64,000 nt of DNA from Prorocentrum cordatum (Eukaryota; Sar; Dinophyceae; Prorocentrales; Prorocentraceae), in contig CAUYUJ010002772.1 in the NCBI GenBank assembly GCA_963575745.1, positions 1 to 64,000 on the forward strand. Reading direction: 5' to 3'. Of this stretch, positions 4,215 to 42,510 are shown piece after piece (the stretch's first letter is position 1; each line of letters opens with the position of its first letter). A program made the translations under genes and the position numbers. Below the pieces are notes generated by a model. The model was not told the origin of the DNA and made no database searches. It saw nothing but the letters and a program-made list of their open reading frames with translations.

Positions 4215-5528
4215 CACCAGAGCGCAGACAAGAAGCAATGGAACCCCGTAACATCTTTATGTGGGGAACTCCGTTCGCATAATTTTGGCGGAAGCGCCAG
4301 CGGCGGGCGGTCACGGTCGGGCTGCGGCCGCGACAAAAGGGCCGCGCGCGCGGGGCCGCGGTCAGGCGGCGGGCAGCGGCAACCCAGGGCGTCTGGGCCA
4401 AGGCGTGCAAAGGCGTGCAACTCCAGGGAGTCTGTCAGACAGCCCCTGAAGTGAACATGCAATCGGCACATCCAGGGGGTCTGAGAATTCAGGCACCGAG
4501 ACGGCCGCGCAACCAAAATGGCGCACAAGGCGCCCCCGCCGAAAAAAAGAACGGGTAAGGAACGCTTCCCATGCGGGACGCCAGTCCAGGGAGTCTGACG
4601 GGCAAGGGCAGACTGGCACTGGTAGGGTAGTCCAGCAGGAGGATACTCTGACAACGCCAGGGGGCGGCCGCAACGTCAGAGCTCGCATCCAGGGAGTAGA
4701 AGACTGAGTCTTCCGAGGAAGAAGCTTCCACTGCAGAGATGCGCCTGCGCAAGAGACCCACAAACAGGTCAGCGCAGCAAGGTGCCCGAAGCAACACTGT
4801 GAAAAGCCGAAGTCGCCGTAAGGTGCACCACCCAATGTGACTCAGCGCCACCACGCATAAGCATGGTAGCATGCGAGGGACGGGACCACCATATACCCAA
4901 GACGGGTCCCTCACAATCACACCGATCCAGGGAAACGGCGGAAGGCCGCACAAACTTTGAAAGATCCAGGGAAGGCGCAGCCGATGAACAACGACAGCTC
5001 GGAGCCCACCTCAGCGCGCCAGGCTGTGCCTGGCAGGTGAGAGCAACTACAGTGAGGCCAGAGGCCACGGGTCCACCAGCAACTGCGATTGCCAGGTGGA
5101 TGGTATTACTGACACGCACACCTGCATCCACAAGCAGGAGGTGCGCGTGTCAGTTGGGAAGGGCGGCGGAAGCCGCAGGCGGGTGTAACCCAGGGTGCGG
5201 CAGAGGGCCGCAGCCGATTGGAAGTCAGGGTGTGAAACGCAGCACGGATGGACAATTGGCGAAACCTGCTGATGGGATCCGTCAGCCACTGGTGAAAGTA
5301 GGTACAGCGGGGCCAGAGGCCAGCTAGGGTCTGCGAGTATCACGCAGCAGGGCAGATGGTATTGCTGCGCGTCACACTTGGGCCCAAAGGTGGGAAGTGT
5401 GCCGTCCAGGGGGGGAGGGCAGCCAGGCTGCCCCACGGTTGTGGGAGAGAGACAGCGGCTGAAGGCCGCACGTGGTGGGCCGTGAGGTTGTCATGGTGCC
5501 GCCTCGGTGCTGGGAGTGTGGTGTGGGC
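4215..5528 (-). other. 3' UTR and 3' end of the giant LINE
   Basis: There is no convincing ORF here on the element's strand. The region holds at least seven CCCTGGA words (plus-strand TCCAGGG), a hairpin at 4507-4524, and a loose internal duplication (about 5040-5220 versus 5300-5475, sharing GGCCAGAGGCCA and GATGGTATT). The terminal part (about 4275-4345, minus strand) contains GTCGCGGCC, GCCCGACC and CGCCCGCCGCTGGCGC. The same ordered words occur at about 50295-50335 on the plus strand, in the tail of the related element. The shared tail is what identifies this as a 3' end rather than random intergenic DNA. Confidence 0.65.
4507..4524 (-). promoter_or_regulatory. Conserved 3'-UTR hairpin of the LINE family
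   Basis: The minus strand reads GCGCCATTTTGGTTGCGC. GCGC arms can pair around a CCATTTTGG core. An 18-mer differing at two positions in the same place (TT replaced by CA) lies at 50104-50121 in the 3' UTR of the related element. The core resembles the GCCATTTTGG part of the dinoflagellate spliced leader. A role in RNA recognition by the RT is inference only. Confidence 0.5.
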
Positions 5529-6668
5529 TCAGTCTCCCCATCGGTGCCTCTTTTCGTCTCGATCGTCTCGGTCGTCGGGACGGCCTCCGCCGCGCTTGCC
5601 GCCCGTCTGCCAGCGATCGTCGCGCCAACCATCGCTCCAGTCGCTCTGCCAGCTGCCCCAGGTGTCCCAGGAGCTTGTCGCGCGCTCTCGCCAGCTGGTC
5701 TGCTGATGGCTGCCCTTGCCCCTGCCGTCGGGTCGGGAGTGTCGCAGGTAGTCGGCGCGTAGCCTATCCCAATCAATGCCATAGCCAAGCCTGGTGTTCA
5801 TCAGGTAGGCGTTGTACCCGCAGCTCTTCCAGTCCTCGAGAAACTTATTGATGGACGCGGCTGTGCGTAGTTTCGGGTCGGATTTAAGCGCCCTGGATCC
5901 AGGGAGCCAATTTCGCTGCGTGTGTGCTGTCCACAGCGCGCAGAAGACTGCGCCCAACTCCGACTGGTGTCTGGCTATGCGTCTGGCGGGTGTCTCGTTG
6001 GGACGCTCCAGGTCCACCGTGCCCAGCCAGACCTTGTACATGGGGCCACCCCCTTCAGGACAGGTCAAACGGTTGAGTGCATCCTGTTCCGATGCGCCTG
6101 TATGGCGAGGGTGAGCAGGTCTCTGTCCAGGGAGCTGTGGGGTTGGCACGGGGGAATGTTCGGTCCAAGCGCCGCCTCGGTCGCGGGCGCTCTCGTCCAC
6201 CTGGTGTCCCCTGGCTGGACCGCTGGTATGTTCGGCGTCGGGCGCGTCGTCTCCGTCCGTGGTCGGGACCTGCTCGCGGCTGGTGTCAGAGCTGTCCGCA
6301 GTTGTGCTTTGCTGAGGCGCCTTGTCGCCTGGGGAGCTCCCGTCGGGCTCCGTGGCCGAGTCCGAGCAAGTGCAAGGGGGAGGGGGCTCGCCCTCTCCGC
6401 AGTCGGGAGCCTCCTCCTTTGTAGGGGGGACCCCGTCTTCCCCGCTCTCGTCCTTGCCGATGTGGTCGGGCGGGTCCAGGTGGCCCATTCGGGAGTCGTT
6501 GTCTCTCGTGCCCAGGGACTTGTCTGTGTCGGCAGCCGTAGGAGTGTCTGGCCTATCATCGCTCAAGGTCAGCACGCCGGGCGGGGGAGACTCAGCCAAG
6601 GAAGTGATGGATGTGGAGGCGAGGGCGTCGGCACTGAGGCTGAGAAGGAAGCTCGTCAGCATGCTCAT
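5529..6668 (-). CDS. LINE ORF4, 379 aa, with a C-terminal domain shared with the 47-49.6 kb ORF
   Basis: The ATG at 6668 overlaps the stop of the upstream ORF as ATGA (6668-6665), so start and stop share bases and termination-reinitiation is plausible. Residues 1-200 are acidic and rich in Pro, Ser, Thr and Asp, probably disordered. Residues about 210-311 form a compact domain beginning MYKVWLGTV, with ETPARRI, LGAVF, PGSRAL and YGIDWDRLRADYL. It aligns with residues about 690-790 of the plus-strand ORF at 47194-49632 (LYKAKW, ETPGEAI, LGARF, PGSRGAL, GVDWAQLRLRYL). The tail is rich in Trp, Arg, Asp and Gly, as in nucleic-acid-binding tails. I do not recognise the domain. As the 3'-most ORF next to the 3' UTR it could bind element RNA, but this is inference. 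Confidence 0.75.
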   Translation of the reverse strand: MSMLTSFLLSLSADALASTSITSLAESPPPGVLTLSDDRPDTPTAADTDKSLGTRDNDSRMGHLDPPDHIGKDESGEDGVPPTKEEAPDCGEGEPPPPCTCSDSATEPDGSSPGDKAPQQSTTADSSDTSREQVPTTDGDDAPDAEHTSGPARGHQVDESARDRGGAWTEHSPVPTPQLPGQRPAHPRHTGASEQDALNRLTCPEGGGPMYKVWLGTVDLERPNETPARRIARHQSELGAVFCALWTAHTQRNWLPGSRALKSDPKLRTAASINKFLEDWKSCGYNAYLMNTRLGYGIDWDRLRADYLRHSRPDGRGKGSHQQTSWRERATSSWDTWGSWQSDWSDGWRDDRWQTGGKRGGGRPDDRDDRDEKRHRWGD

Positions 6669-9211
6669 CTCATGGCGGTATGGACGAGGCCACTTGTTGG
6701 GGCTAGGGTCGCTGCGTGTTCCATCCAGGACTCCCTATGCCTCTCAACGTTGGTCAGGTGTGCGACGACTCGCGCCGCGGCCACGCGCTTGCCCTCCCAG
6801 CGCTGGTTGGGTGGGAGCCAGTTGTCCGGGATGTAGTCGCCGTATACCGTCCTGAGGAACTCGGAAAGAAATTCTTCAGGCAAGGAGGCTTCATCGTACC
6901 TGGGTTCTGGGAAGCGACTGTCGCGATTGGCGAAACAAAACTGCCTCCAGGTGTAATCCAACCCAGGGTGGAAGTCACGGAGGTATGTTACCAGCGATCG
7001 CTGCGCGGACAATCCACCGATGCCAGGTCTGCTGGGGTCCTGTGTGCACAAGGTCGGATTGTTGACGCTCCTGTTGCTGAGGAGCGGGCCCTGCGGTACA
7101 GGCAGCTCTGGCAAGAGCTCCATAAGCTCCGCGAGTGACCTAGGAGTTTGCTTTGTCGCTGACGCAGTACTGCCCGCGGCGCCAGATCCAGGGGGATTGC
7201 ATGCTCCGGCCTTGGCGAATCGATCCTGGACCTTGGCGTCCGCGCCTAGCCACGGGAGAGAATCAGATATGTCCGCTGCCGCCTCGTCTCTTATCTGGCT
7301 GCTGGGCGAAGGAAGGACTGGAGGCTTGGCTGGGTACAGTGCGCTGAAGTCGCGATCCAGGATATGATCCAGGGTGGCCGGGCCTATGTTCCATATCGGG
7401 ACAAGGCAGCGCCGGCAGCACCAGGTCGCGTTCCATTTGCGCTCCCACCAGGCGATGGCTCGTTTGTCGATGGGAGGCAGCCCAGCTTGCTCGGGAACAC
7501 CTATGGCTTCCGCCGGCTTCCATATGAAACCCCCGAGGGGAGGGGCACCTGCGTTCCAGACGAGGAGCGGGGCCCCCTGGGGGCATGTGTCGCACCGCGC
7601 GGAGTAGCTCTGGCTCTGTGCAGCTTTGAGGCCGAAACGCTCATCCCGAATCCGTAGGATGGGAATGGTGGTATTGGCCCGCTCGGGGATCTTCATGCCC
7701 ACCGGTGTCATGATGAGGTCCGATAACGTTCTCGCGTCCGCCTGTGGGCTGCATCCAAAGCCAAGCAGGAGGTGGCCCAGGTGGGGGAGGGCGTCCGCCT
7801 TGTCGTTGTTGGCGCTAGCCCTCTGTTGCTCATGCTCATTCACTCTGTCGGCTAGTGTCGTCCCTGTCGGCGCCGGGATGCCCTGATTCTCCAAGTGGCG
7901 CAACCAGCAGAGCTCGCAGTGCCACCCCATGTTGGCGCCGTTGAGGTAGGCCTGAGGTCTATTCTGAGCAACCATCCGGCGCGTGTTGTCGGAGATCCAA
8001 GCGCCTTCGTTGGAGCGTAGCTGGTCCTTCCCGCAGTTGTCGCACATGTACCTGCCGTTTTTCTTTTCGGGTGCAAGCCTATCGTCGGGGATGTAAGGAG
8101 GGTCCTGTCTGGTGCCTGGGGCAGGGGTCGGCGGCGGGGGGGCATTGAGGTCGGTGTTGGATAAGGCAAACCCGCCGCCAATGTAAGGGGGCCCCGCGAG
8201 CCGGTCGTCAGGACCCAGGGAGACGTCGGTCCCCGCCAGCGCTACGTGTAGCGCACACACCGAGCAGCCGCGCGTGTCCAGGGAAGCCAGAGTTGCGGCC
8301 GGAACGATCTTTTCGAGGACGAGCATTGGCGCTTTCAGCTGGAAGTCCTGCCTGTCCATTTCGCTCCAGGTCTGCGGGCAACCGGCTGCCCGCGCAATCG
8401 GGCGGTGGTGCGCTAACGCCACGAGCTTGGAGATGTGGGGCAGGATGGCCTCGATGCGACTGCGTAGGTCGGCAAGGTCGTCTAGCGTGAGGCTCCAGGT
8501 TCCGGCGAATTGGCTTCGGAAGCTCTGGTGAACCTCTTGCCAGGGGACACAGAAACCCAGGATGGCTTCGATGACGTCCCCGGTCTGCTCTGCGTGCGAG
8601 AAGGGCCACAGAAACACGCGCGGCTCGCGAAGCATGAGCATCATGACGACCAGGAGCGACCGAGCCTTGCAGGATTCCATGGGGAGGCCGTCGGTGTCTA
8701 TGATCCCCTTACGGAACTCGTCCCCGGTGGAGCCGACAAGCGCGCCACGGAGGATCTGTGCTAACCCGTCCATTCCATGGTGCTTCCTGTGTCTGCAGCA
8801 GTCCTTTGTGGCCGCGCTCCACGCCTTGGGAACCTGCCGGAAGAGCCCCTTGGGGGTGCACTGGCGACGCCTCCACAGTGTTACACGCCTTCCACTGGTG
8901 TGAGGCAGCGGAGGAAGGGAATCATCCTGGACTGCGTAGCTCGCGTCTTGCCAGGGGGTGCCCAGACCGAGTGCCCACACCATTGCCGCCCACAGCGTGT
9001 TGTAGACTAGATTGGTTGCGTCAAGTCCCAGGGACATGTCGAACAAGAAGCCCAAGTGCGACCAAGCCTTGCGGTCGAGCCTGCCCGGCTGTCGCGGTGT
9101 CGCGGCCAGTGAGAACTCGTGCGGATGCAGCCCAGACATCAAGTAGATGAGCACGGAGAAGGCAGGCGTCGAGAGAATCTCATGGAGCCCGCCCGAGATT
9201 AGCTTACCCAA
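6665..9211 (-). CDS. Unknown 848-aa protein with cysteine pairs, downstream of the helicase in the same frame
   Basis: The ORF is open for about 850 codons and is in the same frame as the helicase ORF. Only the TAG at 9220-9218 separates them, and the first codons after it (9217 on) have no ATG, so this is probably the C-terminal half of one long protein or reached by readthrough. Visible features are Cys pairs that could bind zinc: C390-x2-C393 (YMCDNCGKD) with C432-x2-C435 (WHCELCW), and C540-x2-C543 (RCDTC) with C599-x2-C602 (CCRRC). A Pro-rich linker lies near 357-380. The N-terminal 250 residues look helical and hydrophobic. No enzyme motif recognised. The intact length suggests it was selected until recently. 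Confidence 0.65.
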   Translation of the reverse strand: MGKLISGGLHEILSTPAFSVLIYLMSGLHPHEFSLAATPRQPGRLDRKAWSHLGFLFDMSLGLDATNLVYNTLWAAMVWALGLGTPWQDASYAVQDDSLPPLPHTSGRRVTLWRRRQCTPKGLFRQVPKAWSAATKDCCRHRKHHGMDGLAQILRGALVGSTGDEFRKGIIDTDGLPMESCKARSLLVVMMLMLREPRVFLWPFSHAEQTGDVIEAILGFCVPWQEVHQSFRSQFAGTWSLTLDDLADLRSRIEAILPHISKLVALAHHRPIARAAGCPQTWSEMDRQDFQLKAPMLVLEKIVPAATLASLDTRGCSVCALHVALAGTDVSLGPDDRLAGPPYIGGGFALSNTDLNAPPPPTPAPGTRQDPPYIPDDRLAPEKKNGRYMCDNCGKDQLRSNEGAWISDNTRRMVAQNRPQAYLNGANMGWHCELCWLRHLENQGIPAPTGTTLADRVNEHEQQRASANNDKADALPHLGHLLLGFGCSPQADARTLSDLIMTPVGMKIPERANTTIPILRIRDERFGLKAAQSQSYSARCDTCPQGAPLLVWNAGAPPLGGFIWKPAEAIGVPEQAGLPPIDKRAIAWWERKWNATWCCRRCLVPIWNIGPATLDHILDRDFSALYPAKPPVLPSPSSQIRDEAAADISDSLPWLGADAKVQDRFAKAGACNPPGSGAAGSTASATKQTPRSLAELMELLPELPVPQGPLLSNRSVNNPTLCTQDPSRPGIGGLSAQRSLVTYLRDFHPGLDYTWRQFCFANRDSRFPEPRYDEASLPEEFLSEFLRTVYGDYIPDNWLPPNQRWEGKRVAAARVVAHLTNVERHRESWMEHAATLAPTSGLVHTAMR

Positions 9212-9217
9212 GGCTTC

Positions 9218-12200
9218 CTAATCGAAATGCACGTCCAGGGGTGCATTGTAGCGCTCGGCGAAACAGGTGGCTTGGGCGTCAAGCGCTTGCTTCTTGGCAG
9301 CGTCCAGCTCGTTTTGCCCGCTCTCCCCCTTTGCGTCGCAGCTCCAGGCGATAGGCGATGTTACCCATGAGGCAAGGTCGTGCAGCGGGTCGAAGCCCTC
9401 GTCGATGTCCAGGGAGCTCCGGTGGCCCAAGGAGGCGCTGCCGCGAAAGCGGACCCAAAGGCGAGTAAGTCGCCCGTATTCAGAGAGTACGCGCAGCTGG
9501 GACCAGGTGGCATTGGCAAACATACGCCCGTCTCCCAAGATCAGGATGTTCCGCTTGGCCCTGGTGATCGCCACGTTCAGGCGTTTGGCGTCGTCGACAA
9601 CGCCCCAGTTATGGTGCCCATTGCTCCGTGTAGTAAGCACGATTACGATGTCCGCCTCTCCTCCCTGGCTAGAGTCGATTGTGGTGAGCTTGAGCGCCCC
9701 ACTCTCCATGTGTTCACCCGCAATCTGCCGGAGTCCAGGGAAAGAAGTGCCGATGGCTGTGTGGGCGTTACGGTCTTCTCGGAAAACGTATTCCCACCGT
9801 TGAGTGTCCACACTGTGGCCTTGCGGGGGGAGTCCAGGGCTAGGGGTGTCTTGACCTTCGCGCACGGAGCCGCCCTTCCCCTTGCCTGTCTTCCCCTTCC
9901 TGCTTCCCTTGATGTTTCGAAGGACGCCGGAGAGGTGGCGGGGACCTTGCGGCCAGCCATCCGCGAGGATAGCCGTCTGGAACTGGTAACCAACCACGAT
10001 TCTGACGGAGGTGCCTTTATCAAGCTCGGGCAGAAGTGCCTGCACGATGTCCACGGCCTGAGCTGCCTCAGGAAGGTTGGCGCAGCCTGGTTGGAGGTCT
10101 GAAGTGACCTCCCAGGAAAGCGTGTGAACCAGCAGGAAACGGTGCTTGTCTCCGCTTGGCGGCGGATCCAGCTGCTCGAGGGTTACGCGGAGATCACCTT
10201 CGTCGGACTCGGTGAGTTTCGCCAGCTCTGTCAGTCGCCCGGGTTCCCAGGCTTTAATGTCTCTCCATGGGATGCCTTCGACAAGTGGCCTGTCTCTGAG
10301 CGGATCTGTGATACCTGACGTCATGCCTTTTCCGTAGTAGGCTGCCTGCGGAAAGGCGAGTAGCTGTGGATGCATCTGGTAGCAGACCGAGAGGTGAACC
10401 ACTGCCGATTCTTGGCCGCGGAGCGCGTGGAACATCCTGTCGAAAATGCTGACACAAAGTCCCAGGTCGTTCGCAAGCTTGGAGAGCACCGTGGGGGGCA
10501 ACTGATTCGGGTCACCCACAAGGACCAGGGCCCCGCCACTGTTGATCAGATTAACCATGGACATGAGTGCGTGTAGCTCCGTGGCCTGTCCAGCCTCGTC
10601 CATTACCAGGAGGACGATGTGGGGGCATTCTTTTTGTCCAAGGGCTTCTGCCGCCTCGTGTGTGGACATGATTACCCTGGCGCTCCGTAGTAGGCTCGTC
10701 TTGTAAGGCCTGAAATCTTGACTCTTGTCCCCGTCCTGGAACGGGAATTCCCCGCAAGCGTTCCTGTAGTGGCCTTCAGGCGTCAGGTCGACGAATGCCT
10801 CGTTGACACGGTCCTTCTTTGCCAGGCGCACGAAGCTTCCAGGGAACCCCATGTCCGGGTCGAGGCGTCGCTGCCGATGTGCTTCGATCATTGCCAGAGC
10901 CGGTTGGTCCACCGCTGTGTTGGAGCCTGCGGCCAGAGCAACCGCTTGTCCAGGGCGTAGGCAGGAGCCCCACATGTCCAGGCAGGCCACCGAGAAGGTG
11001 GTCTTGCCCGTCCCAGGGGGTCTGCGCACTAGTACGGCGTGATGACTCAACGTGGCCTGAAGGGTCCTGGTCGCGTCGCTGTTGGGCTTGTGCCTGCTCA
11101 ATGTGCCGCGGAGGGTGTCAATGCTGGGCGTGGGGCGCACTCTCTGGAAGACAGAGCCTGTCGCCTCAGAGATCTCCTCGTCAGAGAAAGCCTTCAGGCC
11201 CTGGGGGAAGGGCGGCGCCTGCTGTAGAAGGCCGTCTCGGACAGCCTGCGTGTGGTCGACGTCGGGAACATCGAAACCCAGGGTGGCGGCCGCTCTGGCC
11301 CTCAGGCTCAGACCCAAGGAGCAAGTGTGCCTCAGGTCATTGGCCATAAATCGTTCGGAGCGTGGGGCGTGCACGAAGGCCAAGAGAAACGTCAGAGGGG
11401 ACAGCTGGTGGGCGAACAGGTCCGCAGGGTTCTGACGAAGGTAGTAGATTTGGTCGAGCGCCCAGCACTGCCGCCAAAACTGGATGTCAGAAGGGGCTTC
11501 GTCCACTCGATACCAGGGAGCATCCTCGCTTTGGGGGCGTTTCGCCTTGGTCTCGTCTGCATGGAACTGACCTCCCTTCCCACTGTTGTAGAGCACAATG
11601 CACCTGTCGGAGGGATATCTGGTGGAAGGGCTGAGACCGAGCGCTTGGGCGTCTCTGGGATGGATGGGGCCGCCCAAAGCAGGGGGGCACCATACTGCGA
11701 CATCAGCGATCTTGTCTACTGTGGGGCCCGTGACGGAGATATACAGCTCCCTGCTGTCCTTGTCCCCGTCGAGGGATCTGGGCGCAACCTTGTACTGAGA
11801 AGGCCATTCCAGCAAACAGAGCTCTTTGCCGTCAGGTAGGCCCATTGCGTTCCGTATCCAAAAGGTATCCAGGTCTTCCAGGTCAGTGTTGGCATCGATC
11901 CTGGTGATGCGAACTCCGAGGGCGCAATTGCCTTTCCTGGCCAGGTCCTCTCGCGTGGAGCCTTTTCCGTCATCTACCGTCTCGACGGAGGCTTGGCTTT
12001 CCGCCCAGGCGATCCTGCGTAGCGTCTGCCCTCGATCCTGGAGAGAGTAGGGCCACTGCGAGGGGAGACGCACGGCACCAGTCAGCTCCCCGAGTGCCGC
12101 CTTGGGGTGGACCCTGGAATGCTGGGAGTCCAGTGGTACAGAGTAGAGACTAACTACCTCGGCGGCCGCCTGTAAGGCCAACGACTCGTCCAGGGCAGCT

Positions 12201-12991: not shown

Positions 12992-14160
12992 GATCCAGGG
13001 ATCGGGCGGTCCAGGGTGGCAGCGGAAGGCTGCTGTCTGTTGCTGCGGCAGCTGAAGGCTGCAACCCGTCGAGACCTTAGTGCGTCGCAGCGGGGGCGAT
13101 CAGAGGAGAAGGGGGGAGGGGGATTTTCGAGAGCGTCAACGAACTGGGCAACCCGGTCCAAGTCGCAGAGGTCGACACCGGCCGCAGGGAAGAGGGGAGG
13201 GGGGGGGCGCTGGGAGCCATCCCAGACAATCCAGGAGGTGACCGCCAAGTCACCGGCACGACGAAGGGCGTCGGCCCAAAAGACCCCTAGTGTTGCGAGG
13301 CGGTCGGCTGCTTTGTTGAGGCGGCGTCGCACTGCCTGCCATGTGAGGGTCCAGCCGGCCTCGCTGGCCTGCCTGAGGGCAAAATCCATCTGCTGTGCCA
13401 GGTGGAGCCGGCGATAGCGGCCTGTGCCGGCCCCGTACCGGATGGCAGCTAGGTTGTCGCCTACCACCCTGGCACCTCGAAGCGTGCTCCCGACGTGGGG
13501 GAGCAGGGCGAGGCCAGCTCTGCACCCAGAGGCCTCCGCCGTCTGCGCGTTGTCACAGCCTGGGAGGGCGACGACGGCGACGGCGACAACGCGTGGGTAG
13601 CCGTGGCGCGGGTCATGTCTCCAAAGGATCGCGGCCGCGCCGGAGACCTTGTCGCCCTTCCCGATCCGGCGTGCTCCTCCGTCGAACGTGAGCTCGTAGG
13701 GCCATTGGGCAGTGTCGGCGGCGGGGAGCAGGGAGTTCCCGACAGTGATTTCCTCGCCCACGTCCAGATCCCTGCCAGCTCTGAGCACAAGAGTGTGCTG
13801 GTCGCAGAGTCTGCAATAGGTCTTGGTCCAGAGGGCGCTGGGCCCTGTCCGTCCTAGGGCAGGGGAACCAGCCCACCCCTGGGGGCACCCAGCTCGCCCT
13901 GGGGTCGCAGGTTTGGAGAACGGCGAGCCGGTCCCCACTACGCGCGGCCCTGGTCGTGATAGGGAGGCGCCGGATTCCCCCCCCGGCGCGTGGAGCCTGT
14001 CTGCCGAGGTGCGGCCCGGCGGCCCCACGCATGCGCAAAAGGCGTGGCCCTTGGGGATTGCATTGTTGACAGGGGTCGAGCATAGGGGCCCAGACCGCGG
14101 TTTCATCCGCAGGTGCTGCCGGAGGCTGCCCTTCGTGCATGTCATCGTCCTCATCGTCAT
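12811..14160 (-). pseudogene. LINE ORF2 segment: RNase H domain
   Basis: The stretch at about 13700-13290 reads as an RNase H fold: YELTFDGGARRI (first Asp), AEASGCRAGLALL (Glu on helix A), VVGDNLAAIRYG (second Asp) and RRLNKAADRLATLG (final Asp). This is the arrangement of RNase H domains found after the RT in several LINE clades, where the enzyme removes RNA from the hybrid. The acidic residues are present. The first 130 codons of this frame are out-of-frame noise, because the real upstream protein continues in the neighbouring frame. The frame runs on past the helicase ATG to 12811. A frameshift between it and the preceding segment marks ORF2 as broken. Confidence 0.75.
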
Positions 14161-15262
14161 CTTCCTGGAGATCGGTATCGGACACAGTGATACCCTGTGC
14201 GATGAGTCTGGCGGCTTCGTCGGCGCCGATGGGAGTGCAATCCAGGTTCACGCAGTATCTGAAGGAGGCCTGGTGTAACAGGCGGCAGACAAGTCTCTGA
14301 TGCTGACCCCTGGTGCACATCGCGGTGGCAAGGTCTCTGGGGTGGTCTGGGCCTCTGGCTTTCTCCCAGGCGAGGGCGGCTGCGGGGCACCAGCGCCACG
14401 CGTGCTCAGTGGTGGCTTCTCCAAGGCCGCAGAGAGGGCAGGCTCCGTAGAGCACCTGCCGGATCGGAATGCTGATGCTGCCATGCTGATCTCCTCGCTC
14501 TGCAGCAAGTGGACGCAGATCCTCTGGCAAAACGTCGTCGCCAAGGAGAGGCCAGAGGGAAGCCTCTCCAGTCCAGGGCCCGAGGCAGGAATCACACCAG
14601 GCCTGGCCGTGATCACGTTGCCCGGCAGTGAGCCAGACTCTTTTGGCCGCCCTGCCGCAGCCACATTGGTGGGGGATCCTGTCGGCAACGCTTCGCCGGC
14701 GCGCGGACCCAGGTAGTCCGTTAGCCAGGATCCGTAGGACGTGGTGTGCCTCGGTGAAGGAGGCGCAGTGCCCCAGGAGCGACCATTCCGCGCCGTCTGT
14801 TTGAGCCCACCTGCGCTCCTCGCTGGTTGCGGAGAACCACCTGCTCACAGCGTGCCCGTGGAGCTGCGTCCAGGCCGCGACATATACCACGCGCCCAAAG
14901 TAGCGGGCCCGCCGTCGGGGGGGCTCTCTCATCGCACGATTGAAGAGGTCAGCAGCCCTGGCGTCAGTCAGCACTTTGGAGCCGGGTCTGCGTGGCTCAT
15001 CCGGCGAGGTAAATTCCCGTGCCCATTTAACGAGCTTGTTCCATCTTCTCCCAGCCTTGTGCCGTGCCTGAGGGGGGCCCCACAGGTCGTCCAGGGCATG
15101 CGCCCTGGCCGCGATCGCTCGCGAAGTGGCGACCGGACACTTGGGGCGGCCAGGGACCTGGAAGCGAATGCCCAGGCCTGTGAGGATGTTGTCGGGAATC
15201 CAAGAAGCGGAGGCAAGGCCGAGAGCGACCCGAAGGTGGGCCCGGAGCGTCCTTTCTTGCAC
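13613..15262 (-). pseudogene. LINE ORF2 segment: RT connector with CCHC zinc knuckle
   Basis: This frame carries the region between RT thumb and RNase H. At about 14395-14450 it encodes ACPLCGLGEATTEHAWRWC, a CX2CX8HX4C knuckle of the kind that follows the RT of many LINEs and helps nucleic-acid binding. An upstream Cys cluster (HQCGCGRAAK ... WCDSC, about 14570-14660) may be a second zinc site. A run of Asp/Glu follows near 14150. After about 14100 the frame degenerates and the RNase H continues in a different frame. No intron signals were obvious at the switch, so I read it as a frameshift. Confidence 0.6.
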
Positions 15263-15996
15263 AGTGTCGGGAAGGGAGTAGTGGGAGGGGTAGGGAATGA
15301 GCGCAATGAGGCGAGGGCGGTTTTGGTGGGAGACATGTTGGCAAGATGCAGGGCCATGGCTCGGTCCCGTAGCTTGGGGAGCGGTTTGCCCCAGGTGCCG
15401 GTAACGAGGGCGTCAAGTTGCCCCCTAGTCATTGCGCCCCGAGGCGGTAAGCTTTCTCCTTCGGCGGCCCGGGATACGACGCAGGCGCCAAGGTAGGGCC
15501 ACTGTGGGCGAACAGCGGATGATCCAAACGGGGTGTAGTCCATGGCACGTCTCCACCAACCGTGGTCGCTGGCTGGAACCAGGGCCGTTTTAAAATTGCA
15601 GCTGCATGGGCGGCTCCAGGGGGAGCACTGCCCTGCGATGTCAGGGCCGCCGGTTCTCCTGATCATTTCGAGGATAAGCCCCGCTGGCAGGCCTGCGACT
15701 GTCGTCGTGGTGCCATTATCGATGAAGTCCACAGGGGCGGAGTCCAGGAGCTGCCTGATGTCGATTCCGGATGGGGCTTCGATCCCCCTGCACCTGTGGG
15801 CTTCGACCAGGAGCCCTGCCGTCCTTGCGAGCCAGGGCAGAGCAATGCCGACACGCAGTGTTTGGGCAGCGGCGCCCAGAAGGGCGGCCAGATCGTCCAC
15901 ATATGTCGGGTCGTCCGCCCCGGTAATGTCGGCGAGGGCGCCGATGAGAGGGTCGTATCCCAAGCACCGGAGGAGTGGGGAGGCGGTGCCTCCCAT
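14968..15996 (-). pseudogene. LINE ORF2 segment: RT palm, motifs B and C, and thumb
   Basis: Translation begins MGGTASPLLRCLGYDPLI, matching RT motif B, and continues to DDPTYVDDLAALLG, the motif C YVDD box holding two catalytic aspartates. The downstream thumb-like sequence (HLANMSPTKTALASL) continues to about 15290, after which the frame shifts. The motif A half of the palm lies in another frame just upstream, with the break near 16000-16030. The catalytic YVDD is intact, so decay is by frame rather than by loss of active-site residues. Confidence 0.75.
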
Positions 15997-16945
15997 CCCG
16001 ATAGATAGAACGTAAGAGTCTCCTTATTCGGCTCTTGTACCTCCCTTTACAGGTTCGCACACACCTGCTGCCGACGAGGCAGTCCACGGAGTGCAGGAGC
16101 CAGCCGGGGATTTGCCATCGCCTCGCCAGCTGCCCCATCCATTGCAGGGATATACGTACAAAGGCTTTGTTCTGGTCACAAAAGAGGACCGCGGTACTTG
16201 GAGCGGGGCCTAAGCGCCTTGCTGCGTCCTGTATATAATGGTCAACAGCGTCTTGGTGCGCGCCAAGCAGGGCGGACCACGAAGGCCCGGGTTCGGTGTC
16301 GGCAACCGGATCCAGGGCGAGGTGGTCGGTGGCGGAAGTGATATTGGGCCCACATTGTCCCCCGCGCTTGGCGGCTTGATTAGTGCTAAGCCTGGGCTCA
16401 ATCACGGGGCCGAGGCAGTCGGCGATGGTTGCACCGTGCAGCCTTCGTAGGCAAGTGGGGAGCTGTAAGGGCCGCATATCGTCGGCAAGCTCCGCGGCCG
16501 GTTTCTTGCCAATCCAGACGAGTGAATCGATGGAAGGGCCTAGGACCAGGTCTAAAAATGCTGGGTTCAGCTCGGCGGCATACCAGGCCTGGGCGAGTAG
16601 ACCGGCAACGAAGCGAGCCCCGGGATGGTACAGCTCGTACGGTTCTCCGTCAACCCCGGGGGCGCTGCCGCTTGGACCCAGGACGAGGGAGGCTATCCTA
16701 CCCCACTGCGGGTTGGGGGAATGAGGGAACTGTCCAGTATCCTTGTGCCTGAAATATTCGTCGAGGATACGGTCCGCGGCTGAGGGAGGGGGGGGGGGCG
16801 GTTTGCCAGATCGAACTCCGGCTCCGCCATAGAACGTCGTCGACTTCCTTCGTGCGCTCCTTCCATCTTCCGTCCGTGTCACGAACCCCAAGGATAGCGT
16901 GTGTCCTGACGAAGATTTCTCGACCCGTCCGGTAGTGGGATGCAA
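15716..16945 (-). pseudogene. LINE ORF2 segment: RT fingers and motif A
   Basis: The fingers region shows GPSGSAPGVDGEPYELYH (RT motif 0/1-like) and DMRPLQLPTCLRRLHGATIAD (motif 2). Motif A is TAVLFCDQNKAFVRIS, with the first catalytic Asp and the KAF signature of LINE RTs. After about 16020 this frame becomes Arg-rich noise and motifs B and C appear in the next frame (14968-15996). Together the two frames give a complete non-LTR RT palm. Confidence 0.75.
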
Positions 16946-17981
16946 GAGCGGGGCGCTCGACCCCGGGGCCCCTCTGCGCGGGAGTGAGGCGGGCGGCGCG
17001 TCTCTGAACAGCGTCGTTGTCCCACCTTCGCAGCCAAAGCGCGGCCTGCTGAGGGGTCAGGTCGTTGCCGTCCCACTCATACTCAGCGAGCCAGGCCGCG
17101 AGTGCCCCCACTGGGCGTGCGTTAGAATCCGATCTTCCTGCAGCCGCGAGCAGGGTACCTGGCGAGCGGTTGGTTTTACTCCTACGCCACTTCCTCCACC
17201 AGTCTTGTATGGCCGCGGACATGGCGTGGCGACCCAGAGCGAGGAAGGCAGGCAATAGCGGGACGGTGTGATCGTCAGCCAGGTTGGGGGCCGGGGACGG
17301 GGCAGGCGGCTCCTGTTCCGTCTCCCCTTCGCCGTCGTCGTTGTCACTGTGTCTGGCTGGGAACTGTCCAGGGGCCGCCGGACGGACCCAGTCGGCAGGT
17401 TGTAGGAGGCCGGTCAGGTCAATGTCAGGCAGCCCGACTGTGCGCTCGAGGAAGGAGTACAGGGTTCTTAATTCCGCATGTGCCTCGCTTGGAAGCAAGC
17501 GTAGATCACCAGCACGGATGGTGTTGTCCCTACGAGTTCTGGGGGCGCCCTGTGGCTCCAGGTACAGGATGGCATGGTCAGAGACCGATGGTTCCCAGGC
17601 CTTCCTGACTCCGTAGGCCCCAAGCTGTCGGAAGGGGCACGCCACAATGTCAATCTGCGACTCGTTGTCCGCGTCCACCCTGGTGGGCCCATCGCAGCGG
17701 CAGACACTTGATCCAGTCAGAGAAAGTAGGTCGGAGAGGGCCGCAGCCTCATCGGTTTCGCCCTCTCTTGGGCTGTCAATTTGGATGTTGACGTCACCCC
17801 CCCCAGTAAGTGGGGGTATCGTCCCACCTCTCGATGGCTTGTCGGATGGTCTCGATGGTCTCGGCTTTTCTGGAAGGGGGGAGGTGCACCGAGACCAGCT
17901 GGCAGGTGCTGTCACCTCGCCTGATGGCGGCTGCGACGGTACACCCGGGGACGAGGTCTTCAGCCTGAAGGAGCGTCGCAC
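16698..17981 (-). pseudogene. LINE ORF2 segment: EEP endonuclease C-terminal half and linker to RT
   Basis: From about 17805 this frame reads GGDVNIQID (the GD-x-N box of the endonuclease/exonuclease/phosphatase fold), then SQIDIVACP and VSDHAILYLEP, the SDH box with the catalytic His. It continues through a Glu/Pro-rich and Trp-rich linker (WWRKWRRSK) into the RT fingers. It joins the N-terminal half (17794-18516) at a run of eight C on the plus strand near 17797-17804. Loss of one base would fuse YWGG directly to DVN, so a homopolymer frameshift, biological or from sequencing, is the simplest explanation. Confidence 0.75.
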
Positions 17982-18516
17982 CGCGCGGGATGATTATTGC
18001 TACTCCGCCGGCGCAGCCCCCAGCTGGCCCCCTATAGGCTGGCGAGGCGACCAGCGTGCGAGCGTGGAACATGGTAGACCAGACGGCCGCTTCGTGCTCC
18101 GTCCAGTGGGTCTCCTGTATGAGTATGATCCTCCCGTTGGTGGTCATCTGTGTTAAGAAGGCGTGCTTGATCATGTTTTTATGAGCGGTCGTGCTTTTGA
18201 GATACCTGACGTTCCAACAGCCCACTTTGAGCGTGCCGGTCTGTGTAGCGTTGGAGATGGCGTCGACCAGGGCACGTAGGGAGAACTCCCCGCAGAGATC
18301 CGCCCAAGTGGGGTTGTTCCAGGGGGTTGCATGTAAGAAGGCCCAGAGGGATCTCGGCCGCCGGACGGTGTAGTTGCTGTGCAGCGCCAGGGCGCGGCAC
18401 AGGGAGGAGCAGGCAAGTTGCCAGGCTCTGGCTCTCGCCCCCGGAACGAGATTCGCGAGCGGGGGAGACCCAAGGGCTCGGTGAAGCGCCCCTGGGTCTT
18501 CAGGCGAGTCTAGGGG
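17794..18516 (-). pseudogene. LINE ORF2 segment: EEP endonuclease N-terminal half
   Basis: The frame is open from about 18516. It reads TLKVGCWNVRYL at about 18232, the usual start of an apurinic-type LINE endonuclease, then IILIQETHW with the catalytic Glu, GGVAIII, and LVSVHLPP. These are the N-terminal EEP motifs, so the element probably uses EEP nicking and target-primed reverse transcription. The frame breaks at the G-run (minus strand) around 17800. About 90 codons before the endonuclease (rich in Ala, Leu and Arg) link it to the methyltransferase-like region. Confidence 0.8.
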
Positions 18517-18968
18517 AGCGGCGACCCTTGATCAGCAGGCTGCTGCAGCGGCATGGCTCTGCCTACGTCGTCTGGAAAAGGGGTTCCGGCGAGCAGCGCC
18601 CAGGGGCAGTTTCTGTCGGCGAAACTGCGCGCCTGTCTCCATGCGGCCCATATGTGGCTTCCGGTCGGAGCCTCATGCTGTCGGCCGGGGATGTGTTCGT
18701 TCCTGCCCCACGCCATGATGGAAGTCGCGAGCCTGCGTTGGAGGCGCCTCGGGTCGCAGTGGGTCCCCGCGGCGTCGTAGAGCCTCCTCCCTCGAATGTC
18801 CAAGAACCGAAAGTAAGAACCGAGACCCACTGCTCGCGCCCGCTCTTCGGGGGATGGAATCCTGAGTCCATGCTCCCTTCCGTGTGCGAGTAGCCATCCT
18901 GCCCAGGCCCTCACTTTTCCCTCGCTGGCTAGGCTCTCCCGCTCTCTTCCATGACAGACGAGCGTCAA
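18510..18968 (-). pseudogene. LINE ORF2 segment between methyltransferase and endonuclease
   Basis: The frame is open from about 19045 and reads WLLRTLNDTRNGIKN then TLVCHGRERES, RIPSPEERARAVGLGSYF and RFLDIRGRRLYDAAG. It looks like genuine coding sequence, with balanced composition and no low complexity, but I recognise no domain. By position it could be the C-terminal part of the methyltransferase module. It is out of frame with both neighbours. Confidence 0.45.
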
Positions 18969-19041
18969 TCCTTCTGTGCAGCCTTGGAAGCTACGCTCGG
19001 CACCAGTTTCCGCAAGGATGTTCTTAATGCCGTTCCTGGTG

Positions 19042-20166
19042 TCATTGAGGGTGCGGAGGAGCCACCTGTGACCGCTGTCCTCGCTGTACAGAAGGCATAG
19101 TGGATGCGTCCGTCTGGTAGCTGCACGGAACTATTGCCTCGGGGGCATTGGCGGACGCCTTGGACTGGGTCCAGGTAGGGATGCGCCCGTCTGGTCTGTA
19201 TGTCCACCGTCTTTCCCAGGGACTGGGGAGTCGCGGATACGTGACAAGGTCTTCAGCAGGAGGGCAGTTGCTGAACCATAGTCGGTCTCTCGGGCTGGCC
19301 ACTGTGGGGGCGGCATCCAGGCGAACCGCCCAGTCTGGCGGGAGCTCTCCCAGTGCCGTGCACATCGCCTGCTTGTGTGCCGATAGGATCGTGGCTGGGC
19401 GTTCGCAACATATTAAGATGTGAACGTCCGGGCGGAGCCTACGCGCAATGCCCCATAGGAGCGGCGCGGCAAAGAAGTGCACTGACTGAGGGCCCGCAAG
19501 TCCGTCAAGCCCTCCGTGTTGGCTGGCCGCGGACAGGTTGGTGCCTGGGAGCCCAGCTGCGATGACGAGGAGACTTCCAGGGTCCAGGGTTCCGAGGTGG
19601 TCGGTCCACGGACTTCGTCCGCCGTCGCCTCTCAGGAGGTCCCATACGTCAGCTCCTAGTCTCACGTGCGGGGGGCCTCCATCGTGAAGTGTAGCGCTGT
19701 CGCGGTCCCAACGCCTCTCGACTCGGGATGCTGCCTCCTCGTTAATCTCGACAAAGGCGGAGGATCTGAAACGTGGAATCGCGGCAATTTTGCCCGTGAG
19801 GTCACCAATCGCGAGCCTGGCCAGCCCCCATTCATCGAAGAGTGATACGAGATGTAGACTTGGCCCCACGGCGGCACTCGGGTTCGGTCTAGGGTCGACC
19901 ACTCGTGCTCTTTGTTGCTGGGTGAAGTCGTGCGCCCAGTCGTCCCCGAGCCTGGGATCGACGCTTGAGTGGAGCCTGAGGTGCCCCGTGATGTCCCATG
20001 TACCGTCGGGGGAGCCGTTGGAGACAATGCCGTCCTGCTGAAGAGTCCTCAGAGTGCTAATGATCTGTGTGTTGTCCAGACCTGCGATCTGGTACGCAGC
20101 GAGCGTTGTGTCGGCGGGTGCGACTGCAGAGAGAGGCCGGTCCGTTCGTCCCTGTGTCGCTCCCAT
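19042..20166 (-). pseudogene. LINE ORF2 segment: DNMT3-like cytosine methyltransferase domain lacking the catalytic Cys
   Basis: The first 100 residues look like a winged helix (TQIISTLRTLQQDGIV). Then come motif I LHLVSLFDEWG (104-114), an acidic cofactor-binding strand AFVEINEE (137-144), GADVWDLLR, motif IV GLPGTNLSAAS (205-215) aligned to the GSPCNDLS block of DNMT3, GLDGLAGPQSVHFF (aligned to the GL...G..FF of DNMT3), motif VI LICCERPAT (251-259) and motif VIII PRDRLWFSNCPP (292-303, like R.RYFWGNLP). The catalytic PC dipeptide is PG here (codon GGC for Gly, one base from TGC), so as written the domain should not methylate. LINEs carrying DNMTs have been reported in Symbiodinium. The C-terminal part leaves frame after about 19150. 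Confidence 0.65.
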
Positions 20167-20876
20167 ACCTGCTGGAGCACGTCGGCAGGCTGGGGGGCAG
20201 CAGTCGGTTCATCGATGCAAAGCCGGCTGGGCGGGGGCGCGGCCTGCGGGTCCGACCGCCCGCTTGCTGGTCTGGATGCCCGTCTTATGACGCCTCGTCC
20301 GGCGACGCAGGTGGCGGCGCCTTCTCCTGTCCCGTGGCGGGAGCGCTCCCAGAGGTCAACCAGGGTCCTAGGGTTGGGCACTCTGTTGCCTGGTCTGGTG
20401 GACCTTTCCCTGCTTGTGTTGCCTGTTGCTCTGGTGCGAGCCGCACCTCGCAGTGCGGTCCTGCGTGTGCCTTCGTTCCTACCCCGGGGGGCCCGGCGAG
20501 ACGGGCTCCTGCGCGTCCTATCAGCGGCGGTAGCGCGAGGCTGGGCGCTGGGCTCAGGTGGTCGTGGCCCGGCCGTGTTTCTGATTCGGGTGCGCCTGGC
20601 CACACCGTTATCAGCTGTGTTCGCAGTGGTCTCAGCCGGGGCACGTGCACGTCTGGGCGTGCTGGCGCGCCGGGCGGCGTGTCCAGTCCTGCGGAGATTC
20701 CTTGGCGAGGCCTCTACCGTCTCACTCAGAACCTGGCCCCTGTCGTCGGTAAACGGAGCGCCGGCTCCAGCGCGCAAGATGGTGCGAAGCATGGCAGGTG
20801 CCAGGCTCTGAAAGGGGGCCTCTGGTGCCGACGCGCTGTCCGAGAGAGATGCCGGGCTGCCTGCGAGTTGTCTCAA
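20049..20876 (-). pseudogene. Arg/Pro-rich segment at the start of ORF2
   Basis: This open frame of about 275 codons follows ORF1 directly; the ORF1 TGA overlaps its first codon, which is TTG, not ATG. The composition is Arg/Ala/Pro/Thr-rich and looks disordered. It overlaps the methyltransferase frame by about 118 nt. It may be the N-terminal extension of ORF2 or simply GC-rich open sequence. Codon-like content improves toward its end (DVLQQVWERHRDERT). Low confidence as a protein. Confidence 0.35.
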
Positions 20877-23563
20877 TTGGCGCAGGCTGCATCAGCCGTG
20901 AGTGCCACCTGGCGTGAGTGTATTCTCCTGCCAGTGGGGTTGCGCGTCCCAGGGGGTGGGTGGGTATTCCAATAGGCGCTGAAGGCATCTGGAATTCGCA
21001 TAGCAAGGCCAAGTTCTTCGTGCAGGTCACGTGCGGTTTTGTCAAGTTGTGGTATGGCGGCAGCCCACGCTATCGCGCTGAGCACTTGGTTCCATTCGTC
21101 CTCGGTGGGGGGGCTACCTAAGCCGTCAGTGGCGTGCATCTGTGCCCGTCTGAGCGTGCGTGCCATGGCTTCATGCTCCCTCCTCCAATCCTCCTCCATG
21201 CAGGCGGGGAGCTCAGGCCCGCCTCTCGGCGTGTCTCCTCGCCCCAGGGGGTCATTACTGCAGCCTTGCACCGTGCCAGGAGGCGGTCTCCTGCTCTGGG
21301 CTGTTGTCGTGTCCGCGGGGACCCGTGGAAGTGTAGTTGTCCGGGGTCCAGCCCCGTCATTGTCCGCTGCCCTGACGTTCGCGGGTGTACACTGCACGTC
21401 TTCGGTGCTGACAGGGGTCGTGGCTCCACCCTTCCCCGCCGTAGGCTGCCCCGTCCTGGTAAATGCCTCTGCTGGAGAGGTCCGATCGCTTCCAGGGACG
21501 TCCACGCCGGTGTGGCTCTTGGAACGTCCTACGGAGCCCGCACCATTAACTCCTGTTGTCTCGGCAGAGTTGTCAGTTGGGGCGGGGATTTCAGCTACGC
21601 CAGGGCTCGGCATGGTTGCGCGGACTGGGGTGCGGGTCCGGCCAGATCCATCCGCGGGTGTCGCGGGGTTCATCGGAGTCGCCAGCGGTGGAAACTCGCT
21701 GCTGTCAGCATCGTGGCTTATGCCATTGTCCACCTCTCCGTCGTCTGTCGGTCTAGCCAGGGAAGGTGGTGACGTACCCTGCTCGGGCGCCGCCAACTGG
21801 GTCTGAAGTTGCGCCCCATTCGCGCTCAAAACGTGGCTGTCAATAGACCCACCGTTGGAGCTTGTCCTTGCCTGTGATGTCGGTGCTGCCGCAGGAAGCC
21901 CAGGGCCGGTCGGGGGAGCTGGTGATCCGATATCTGTAGCAGTGGGCAGCCTCGAGTCGCATGCTTGCGTGCCTGTAGCGTCCATCTCGTTGTTCGTGCG
22001 GCTGCGGCTCCTGCGCTGGCTCGCGTCTGGGGTGTCAACAGGCCTGTCCCCCGCCCCAATGGTTCTGGAAGCCTGGGAACCTCCTCTCCGCCCCCGAGTA
22101 ATTCTACCGGGGTCGTGGCGCTGCCGTTCCTCCCAGTGGAGGTTAGAGAGCCTGTTGATTAGGGCGTCCAAGGCACTGGTGACGCTTTCCGGGATGGGAA
22201 GCGCGGTGGCGGCGTCAACGTCTGCGCCTCTGGATCCAGGGACTTCGAGCCAAGGCTGGTGGGCTGAGTAGGTGGCGTCGGGCTCAGGCGCGAGCCATTG
22301 CGTGAATGGGAGCTGTCTGGTGACCTCCTCTCGGATTCCGAACTCTCGGATGAGCTGCCAGACGTGGTCGCGGTCTAGGCTCCCCGGGTTGGCTAATTGC
22401 AGGATCCAATTTGCGGCGAACATGTCCCAGTTGTACCTTTGCATGAGCCGGCCTTCGAGCTGCTTGCGGATTTCGAGGGCGATCCGGCGTTGCACGCCAC
22501 GCGCCAGGTCGTGGACCGCCTGCTCTGGGACGACGGCAGCGAATCTGCCCAACATGCCACGTGCGATGCGCACTGCATCTTCGTCAGCTCTCACCAGGTC
22601 CGCCGGGGAAGGTCTGCATACGCTCACTAGCACCTCGGCAAGTTCCGGGAAGTGCGTAGGCCTGGCAGGTCCAGGGAGTGGGTTGAGGGATGCAGTGGTG
22701 CGTCTGGGAAGTGGTTGTCGGGAAGGTGCGTTGACCTGCAGCCCCACCGAGGCGGGAGTTGGCGTCGCTGCAGGGGCGGAGTCCAGGCGCGCAACGTGTA
22801 TTGGACCAGCGACAAGCTGCAGTTTCAGTCTGGCTTGTGGTCTGTCTGCCCCTCTCGCGGCTGCCCTGATGTCAGCGTCCGCAGGGAGGAGTATCGCCAC
22901 CCAGGTGGGGACTGACGTGAAGAGGAAACCAATTTCTCCGCTCGTGGTGACCTCAACCGCTCCACCGGCCGCGATTGCGGAAAGCAGGGATTCTCCGGGC
23001 TGAAGGACAGTCTCGCAGTCCCGCAGGCCACTCCCCTGAAACACACTGGGTACCGTGTTGGGCGCACTCCTGCTCATCGCCCTGGCGTTATCCCGGAGCC
23101 AGTCGCCTGTGATGAGGGGTGGGGCGGCTCTGGTGTTGGCTGGGTGTGAGGTACCGTTAGGGCCGTCCGGCAGTGGCCAGAGCCGGGTCAGTATCTGCTC
23201 ATTCGCAGAGCCGACCGCGGCTGAGTAGAGCCGGAGCGTGCTGTGTCCAGGAAGCCACGCATCGGGGCGCATGCTACGGGGGCGAACTTTTCCTAGCTGT
23301 GTCACGTGCCTATCCAACGTGGTGATCTCGAGTATTTGGGGTTGAATGGCACGCCTAGGGGCTTGCCGGACAGAGGTGCTGGCCAGGGCGTCCACGTGCT
23401 CCTGTAGCTCCCTGGATACCCCGGCTGCCCTGTGCATGGGGTCCCTGCTGGGCGTGGCAGGGAAGATCCTGACGGTTTGGGCTCCGATCACTATGCAGCT
23501 GGTGCCCACAAATGCTGCCGCCATGGCGTCGGCCGCCGCCAGGCGTATGCGAACTTGCGTCAT
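20873..23563 (-). CDS. LINE ORF1, 896 aa, function unknown
   Basis: An ATG at 23563, only 66 bp from the MITE at the element's 5' edge, opens 896 uninterrupted codons. Residues 1-480 look folded, with hydrophobic strands (SCIVIGAQTVRIF, VPTWVAILLP) and a helical block around 320-420 (ARGMLGRFAAV, RRIALEIRKQL, NWDMFAANWILQL). Residues about 480-770 are Ser/Thr/Pro/Gly-rich and probably disordered. The last 110 residues return to a helical pattern (WRREHEAMARTLRRAQ, WAAAIPQLDKT). I recognise no RRM or CCHC motif typical of other LINE ORF1 proteins. Position and size suggest the RNA-packaging protein of the element, which is inference. Confidence 0.65.
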   Translation of the reverse strand: MTQVRIRLAAADAMAAAFVGTSCIVIGAQTVRIFPATPSRDPMHRAAGVSRELQEHVDALASTSVRQAPRRAIQPQILEITTLDRHVTQLGKVRPRSMRPDAWLPGHSTLRLYSAAVGSANEQILTRLWPLPDGPNGTSHPANTRAAPPLITGDWLRDNARAMSRSAPNTVPSVFQGSGLRDCETVLQPGESLLSAIAAGGAVEVTTSGEIGFLFTSVPTWVAILLPADADIRAAARGADRPQARLKLQLVAGPIHVARLDSAPAATPTPASVGLQVNAPSRQPLPRRTTASLNPLPGPARPTHFPELAEVLVSVCRPSPADLVRADEDAVRIARGMLGRFAAVVPEQAVHDLARGVQRRIALEIRKQLEGRLMQRYNWDMFAANWILQLANPGSLDRDHVWQLIREFGIREEVTRQLPFTQWLAPEPDATYSAHQPWLEVPGSRGADVDAATALPIPESVTSALDALINRLSNLHWEERQRHDPGRITRGRRGGSQASRTIGAGDRPVDTPDASQRRSRSRTNNEMDATGTQACDSRLPTATDIGSPAPPTGPGLPAAAPTSQARTSSNGGSIDSHVLSANGAQLQTQLAAPEQGTSPPSLARPTDDGEVDNGISHDADSSEFPPLATPMNPATPADGSGRTRTPVRATMPSPGVAEIPAPTDNSAETTGVNGAGSVGRSKSHTGVDVPGSDRTSPAEAFTRTGQPTAGKGGATTPVSTEDVQCTPANVRAADNDGAGPRTTTLPRVPADTTTAQSRRPPPGTVQGCSNDPLGRGDTPRGGPELPACMEEDWRREHEAMARTLRRAQMHATDGLGSPPTEDEWNQVLSAIAWAAAIPQLDKTARDLHEELGLAMRIPDAFSAYWNTHPPPGTRNPTGRRIHSRQVALTADAACAN

Positions 23564-23628
23564 GTACCTCTAGTACTGGTGGGGATACGCAAAGTGTCAA
23601 CAATTGTATATGGTCTGGCTGCTGAGAC

Positions 23629-37790: not shown

Positions 37791-37943
37791 CAAACCATCC
37801 TGTGGTGTTGGGTCCTCGTTTTGAAGAGACAGCGCCCCGCGTCTCCTCTCCTCTCCTCTCCTCTCCTCCTCCTCCTCTCCCCCCTCCTCCCTCCTCTCAT
37901 CGCCGTCATCATATTCATCGTCATCATCATCATCATCCTCATC

Positions 37944-41716: not shown

Positions 41717-41730
41717 GCGAGTGTCCCAGA

Positions 41731-42507: not shown

Positions 42508-42510
42508 AAG

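Follow-up and report, generated by a model that had tools for sequence, protein, structure and literature searches.

A probable giant multi-ORF LINE with its own UPF1-like helicase, seen in one copy with a dead ORF2, in Prorocentrum cordatum

Organization of the locus

The window analyzed here is the whole 64,000-nt stretch of Prorocentrum cordatum DNA (contig CAUYUJ010002772.1, positions 1 to 64,000). On its minus strand, from 23563 to ~4287, lies a row of ORFs, designated A, B-D, E-J, K, L and M, which make up a unit of ~19 kb. The features of this unit, of its flanks and of a second element at 47-50 kb are as follows:

20873..23563, minus strand: ORF A, 896 aa, intact, in an ORF1-like position; CCCTGG ranks 2 of 4096 hexamers above synonymous expectation
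18531..20877, minus strand: pieces B-D, frame-changed, coding by codon usage; the "methyltransferase" of the earlier note sits in piece C (19042-20208)
13113..18520, minus strand: ORF2 (pieces E-J), with EEP endonuclease, RT (YVDD), zinc knuckle and RNase H and with five frame changes, by tblastn of proteins P0021-P0035
9218..12991, minus strand: ORF K, UPF1/SEN1/IGHMBP2-like SF1 helicase, 1257 aa, intact, by Pfam and PDB
6665..9217, minus strand: ORF L, with CxxC pairs (by eye), in the frame of K behind one TAG (9218-9220)
5529..6668, minus strand: ORF M, its start overlapping the stop of L (ATGA); its C-terminal domain is common to M and ORF N (47194-49632)
4287..5528, minus strand: 3' UTR, with a conserved terminal block at 4330-4287
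47194..50338, plus strand: second element, with the 812-aa ORF N, an M-like C-terminus and a 3' terminal block of the same type at 50295-50338
23629..23887, strand not applicable: MITE-like unit bearing inverted repeats of 28 nt, directly next to the 5' side of the element
1972..4224, strand not applicable: 77-bp satellite, adjoining the 3' side of the element

An earlier note, made from the letters of the window, had described a series of ORFs on a single strand between a MITE and a satellite, and this outline held: by the ORF listing all large ORFs of the unit are on the minus strand, accompanied there by antisense ORFs of up to 304 aa, and the MITE-like inverted-repeat unit and the 77-bp satellite are both present. 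The end of the element had been placed at the satellite and was corrected, as the conserved 3' block stops at 4287, ~60 nt short of it. The overlapping or near-abutting ORFs of that description were likewise recovered, with L and M overlapping by ATGA, K and L parted by a single TAG in one frame, and the first ATG of K (12991) following ~120 nt after the RNase H match stops at 13114.

When A, K, L and M served as the training set for a Viterbi path based on codon usage, the path followed one frame through A, switched frame repeatedly across 20877-12879 and then kept a single frame across 12878-6715. Among repeats of at least 20 nt, no direct repeat joining the two ends of the element was found (LTR check), and an Rfam scan of the window gave 0 matches at the gathering score. 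The GC of the element's kilobases is 0.60-0.68, which fits P. cordatum, for which published passages give a mean genome GC of 59.7% and a GC of 65.9% in coding genes (PMC10666404).

The rest of the window holds further repeats and ORFs. Closely similar 21-bp satellites (TGGTCGGGTCTAGTTTTTC core) form two arrays, at 32657-37791 and 45471-46330, and an 89-bp satellite lies in the region between them (43943-45326); a ~307-bp tandem repeat in 3.1 copies was found at 62438-63399, and a direct repeat of ~0.6 kb, 70% identical, at 51406-52022 and 52060-52672. Three long minus-strand ORFs (795, 439 and 364 aa) at 38453-43830 gave no Pfam match at 0.01.

ORF2 and its relatives

A protein search with a composite query returned 15 proteins out of 7995 candidates scored (P0021-P0035), with P0021-P0034 matching the E-J pieces strongly and P0035 weakly. 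P0021-P0034 are LINE ORF2 proteins without names, originating from ENA (13) and NCBI (1), and share 38-61% identity with the window in the best local alignment; the ORF2 relatives are located on contigs of up to 26.6 kb, those of P0021-P0024 and P0026 measuring 17-27 kb. Nine of them (P0021-P0029) are one intact ORF each that reaches RNase H by way of RT and begins at EEP or shortly behind it, seven starting from piece E and two (P0026 and P0027) from piece F, and five (P0030-P0034) cover ORF2 in part. The closest, P0021 (1811 aa), is colinear with the window from 18516 to 13114 by tblastn.

Whereas ORF2 is intact in P0021-P0034, it is broken in the window, where comparison with the relatives places frame changes at ~17805, 16790, 16005, 15310 and 13845 (five in 5.4 kb). 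The 1802 codons of the joined window ORF2 contain no stop. By eye, a 4-bp tandem duplication is seen near 16005 and about four codons are missing near 15310, and two of the five frame changes coincide with homopolymers (8 G and 11 C); codon usage hints at extra frame changes in B-D and at D/E. Programmed frameshifting in ORF2 was rejected, and sequencing error as the sole cause of the frame changes was set aside, since the relatives are intact and the changes go in both directions.

Scanned with Pfam, the window itself gave EEP (0.013), RVT_1 (0.043) and RVT_3 (0.0016), all below the curated cut-offs, and 11 relatives gave RVT_1 in 11/11, EEP in 3/11 and RVT_3 in 3/11. A profile built from these 11 matched the L1 endonuclease, the TRAS1 endonuclease and the R2 RT (3e-7) in PDB; with RVT_1 in all 11 relatives and the R2 RT match, the RT is of the non-LTR type. 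EEP is N-terminal to RT in the relatives, with which the window aligns colinearly, its own EEP/RT ORF being split by a frame change, and the zinc knuckle was read by eye, its Cys/His pattern being kept in the consensus of the relatives. Thus the EEP, RT (YVDD), zinc knuckle and RNase H that had been called clear are upheld by way of the relatives, while in the window itself the Pfam scores stay below cut-off and ORF2, with its five frame changes, is not a clean ORF. On sequence grounds the identity of this stretch as a LINE ORF2 is certain, and with five frame changes set against intact relatives and with LINE domains found by profile and Pfam, the window copy is the ORF2 of a genuine LINE that has become a pseudogene.

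In all nine of P0021-P0029 no more than 38 aa of protein follow the ORF2 match, and in P0034 no more than 9 aa; in the weakly matching P0035 the protein runs 420 aa beyond it. Since no K piece (560 residues of the composite query) matched any of these 15 proteins, the helicase is not part of ORF2 in these relatives. An RT alignment scanned against viral contigs and genome contigs found no relatives, and a single viral match of an RT piece (28 residues, 1e-3) was set aside as spurious.

The helicase ORF

ORF K matched AAA_11 (8e-23) and AAA_12 (1e-25) in Pfam, and its best solved relatives in PDB were UPF1 (2e-25), SEN1, NAM7 and SMUBP-2; the NCBIfam IGHMBP2 family matched at 7e-30, below that family's cut-off. 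The ATPase/helicase motifs PPGTGKT, DEAG, GDPNQLPP, SQGGEAD and ITRAKR are visible in K, and a C2H2-like zinc finger was seen by eye near its N-terminus. Together, AAA_11, AAA_12 and these motifs place K with the UPF1-like SF1B helicases, in line with the UPF1-like SF1 helicase motifs reported before.

A protein search with K gave 17 helicases out of 7992 candidates scored (best 81 bits) and no close homologue among them, this search being limited by common helicase words and taking only proteins of 0.55-1.75 times the query length. Hence a fused K-L-M protein (>2200 aa) would escape the K query and a K-L fusion (>1484 aa) the L query. None of the species-named matches among the 17 is from a dinoflagellate, five being nameless and one carrying a protein name only. 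K had no relatives in the viral contigs scanned.

ORFs A, L and M and piece C

The three large ORFs that had been left without assignment, A, L and M, gave no match in Pfam or NCBIfam, and L had no convincing match in PDB. Parts of L recur in two P. cordatum proteins, at 68% over 173 aa and 76% over 155 aa (~8000 candidates scored). The proteins matching 6665-9217 are P0018 (residues 184-356) and P0019 (residues 568-722), and one P. cordatum protein with an L fragment is named ion transport domain-containing by a source. The L fragments sit inside otherwise unrelated gene models, possibly through exonisation or as chimeric gene models, and this is as would be expected for a dispersed repeat. 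L and an L alignment in viral contigs, and the L alignment in genome contigs, found no relatives.

The C-terminal domain common to M and N is 35% identical over 106 aa (2e-17 when the two are compared alone, 4e-12 among all ORFs of the window), and its fold model (pLDDT 48) was too poor to use. Piece C had been read as a methyltransferase, an assignment that was not borne out by sequence search in Pfam, NCBIfam or PDB. A stretch of it recalls a C5 methyltransferase by eye, and it reads Pro-Gly where the catalytic Pro-Cys of a DNMT would fall; a single-sequence fold model of piece C (pLDDT 34) was uninformative.

The 3' terminal block and the element at 47-50 kb

The 44-nt block at 4330-4287 aligned with 50295-50338 at a score of 44, the best of 500 shuffles reaching 33. 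Its exact 16-mer core occurs only at these two places in the window, and no further copy with up to three mismatches was found elsewhere inside the unit; neither the RNase H/K junction nor any of four further junctions examined showed a block of this kind. A second collinear block in the 3' UTRs was not significant alone, being reached by 32 of 500 shuffles, and RNA folding of both 3' ends was no better than that of shuffles (z 0.01 and 0.45). As had been proposed, the two elements have in common a 3' terminal block and a C-terminal domain in their last ORFs; none of the 15 ORF2 relatives matched at the 47-50 kb element.

Both 3' UTRs also carry GCCATTTTGG, at 4513-4522 (minus strand) and 50106-50115 (plus strand), in collinear positions and nowhere else in the window. 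These 10 nt coincide with a portion of the spliced leader of dinoflagellates; two such matches also arose in 5 of 100 shuffles of the window, and the full spliced leader with up to three mismatches was found nowhere in the window.

A word on the sense strand

All 4096 hexamers were ranked against synonymous-codon shuffles. Pooled over A, B-D and E-J, CCCTGG ranked 1 (25 vs 10.6 expected) and CCTGGA 2 (20 vs 8.9), and pooled over K, L and M, CCTGGA ranked 1 (26 vs 8.5) and CCCTGG 2 (28 vs 10.7), so that the shared strand-biased word of the earlier note stands as the top two hexamers in A-J and separately in K-L-M. Nine other ORFs of the window, chosen by the authors, of gene status not established and two of them overlapping, gave when pooled 14 vs 9.6 expected for CCCTGG and 8 vs 7.1 for CCTGGA. 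In single parts the two hexamers took ranks 1 and 2 in K, 12 and 20 in L, 38 and 46 in M, and 48 and 81 in B-D, and E-J alone showed the word weakly (63 and 126). Pooled over the ORFs, the word occurs in all three reading phases. Its reverse complement, CCAGGG, was not enriched in A, B-D or L, was slightly enriched in K (5 vs 2.8) and M (2 vs 0.5), and mildly in E-J (9 vs 4.4, reached by 1.5% of shuffles).

The word extends to the noncoding 3' ends. The 3' UTR of the unit, counted over 5528-4260, contains CCCTGG 10 times (1.5 expected, 0/300 shuffles) and its reverse complement 0 times, and that of the 47-50 kb element contains it 5 times (0.36 expected, 0/300 shuffles). In four other stretches the count was reached by 202 of 300 shuffles (5' flank), 51/300 (51-62 kb), 219/300 (24-32 kb) and 27/300 (38-44 kb). 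Over the whole element the sense RNA would hold 65 copies of CCCUGG, 34 of them as CCCUGGA. As the word marks the 47-50 kb element too, it might mark a class of elements and not one element.

One element or several

We consider it probable, at roughly 0.72, that the unit is a single giant LINE of ~19 kb, composed of A, B-D, ORF2, the helicase K(-L), M and one 3' terminal block. This reading is supported by the order of the ORFs on one strand with the ~120-nt gap between RNase H and K, and by the C-terminal domain common to M and N and the ATGA overlap of L and M. K-L-M, which lie behind ORF2, are likely part of the LINE: the stretch from the helicase to the 3' UTR is probably the LINE's because no 3' end of known type lies between RNase H and the helicase, because the CCCTGGA word marks both halves, and because the 3' terminal module recurs at 47-50 kb. 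The claim that the helicase and the downstream ORFs belong to the element is thus upheld by word, 3' block and order, and is held back by a dead ORF2, by the order from A to M being read from one copy within the 64-kb window, and by close K or L relatives not being seen alongside the ORF2 relatives (~8000 candidates per search, a weak test given the length limits on proteins).

The distribution of damage bears on this reading. All five verified frame changes fall inside 5.4 of 15.6 kb (chance 0.005), or seven of seven inside 7.7 of 17.9 kb when B/C and C/D, not D/E, are counted (chance 0.003), and no frame change was seen in the 10.1 kb of A, K, L and M. Such a restriction of the damage to the B-J half points to parts that differ in age or in constraint, and different ages would suit two adjacent elements, namely an old, decayed LINE reaching from A to RNase H, its 3' end lost, and a younger helicase element, K-L-M, with a 3' UTR of the 47-50 kb type. 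Such an arrangement would also agree with the K/L homologues not found with the ORF2 relatives, and with the 47-50 kb element, which bears the 3' module and the CCCTGG word and has no ORF2 match. We nevertheless regard it as unlikely: ORF A, which lies beyond ORF2 as seen from K, is intact as well, which makes this account less neat yet possible, the gap from RNase H to K is just ~120 nt and holds no 3' block, the word links A-J and K-M, and a join exactly between two cistrons of the same strand would be a coincidence.

UPF1/SEN1-like helicases are host proteins of eukaryotes and K is intact, so K, with L and M, could also be host genes or a captured host gene beside a LINE. This is improbable, considering that the M domain and the 3' UTR block recur at 47-50 kb, that the L fragments in unrelated P. 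cordatum gene models look like a dispersed repeat, and that no species-named K match is from a dinoflagellate (5 of 17 nameless, one with a protein name only; best 81 bits). The absence of K from the P. cordatum gene set also fits a repeat, gene prediction having been done on a repeat-masked assembly according to the passages cited above (PMC10666404). That K derives from an endogenous virus fragment with a UPF1/nidovirus-like helicase beside the LINE is scarcely credible; a viral ORF1ab chain in PDB matches K weakly (0.00086), but UPF1 does so far better (2e-25), the tested ORFs contain no Pfam family of a viral polymerase or capsid, and viral contigs gave no relatives, whether scanned with K and L or with the L and RT alignments.

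To summarize, the locus is probably a giant multi-ORF LINE with its own helicase, seen here in one copy with a dead ORF2.

A possible mode of replication

If the unit is a single LINE, one long sense RNA would be made from the whole element, and its downstream ORFs may be translated by termination-reinitiation (at the ATGA overlap), by dinoflagellate spliced-leader trans-splicing, or by both. ORF2 would nick the target and launch target-primed reverse transcription from the 3' block, with RNase H removing the template, and the UPF1-like helicase would remodel the long GC-rich RNA, or the RNA-DNA hybrid, such that a 19-kb template is copied; alternatively, the helicase may shield the polycistronic RNA from decay. 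The scattered CCCUGG(A) word may work through the RNA, for instance by binding a protein that the element itself encodes (L or M), and the 47-50 kb element may be a relative, either truncated or non-autonomous, that relies on this type of 3' end too. As a whole, we offer only tentatively, and as doubtful, the picture of a 19-kb polycistronic LINE with its own UPF1-like RNA-remodelling helicase, whose CCCUGG word serves as a code for self-recognition or packaging that one of its own proteins reads, and which also mobilises smaller elements carrying its 3' module.

LINEs are usually 4-8 kb long, and a single element here would exceed this more than twofold and would place a eukaryotic UPF1-type helicase in a retrotransposon, extending helicase-bearing LINEs beyond the insect cases of viral type. 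It would also raise the questions of how target-primed reverse transcription copies a 19-kb RNA, how a eukaryote would translate five cistrons, and whether the RNA word gives cis-preference.

Comparison with known systems

Dinoflagellate LINEs with an additional enzyme are represented by SymbioLINE-Dnmt, Symbiodinium LINEs described in published excerpts as having a DNMT in an upstream ORF (PMC5890265). In this published pattern the RT ORF is preceded by an additional enzyme ORF (PMC5890265); the window resembles it in having extra coding sequence, A and B-D, at that place, and differs in that its candidate DNMT is motif-like by eye, with Pro-Gly at the place of Pro-Cys. The main text of that paper never uses the word helicase (PMC5890265). 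In the literature searched, which covered few subscription papers, no LINE with a separate UPF1-like helicase ORF after ORF2 was found.

The statement that no LINE clade has its own SF1 helicase has to be withdrawn, as, according to published excerpts, insect TRAS (R1 clade) and Jockey LINEs carry one of the positive-strand RNA virus type, located C-terminally in ORF2 (TRAS) or in ORF1 (Jockey) (PMC5563155, PMC6338049). The window element is like them in being a LINE with its own SF1 helicase, and the TRAS1 endonuclease is among the profile matches of its ORF2. K is neither of the viral SF1 type nor fused to ORF2 or contained in ORF1; in contrast to TRAS and Jockey, the helicase of the window element is UPF1-like and has an ORF to itself, downstream of ORF2 and upstream of L and M.
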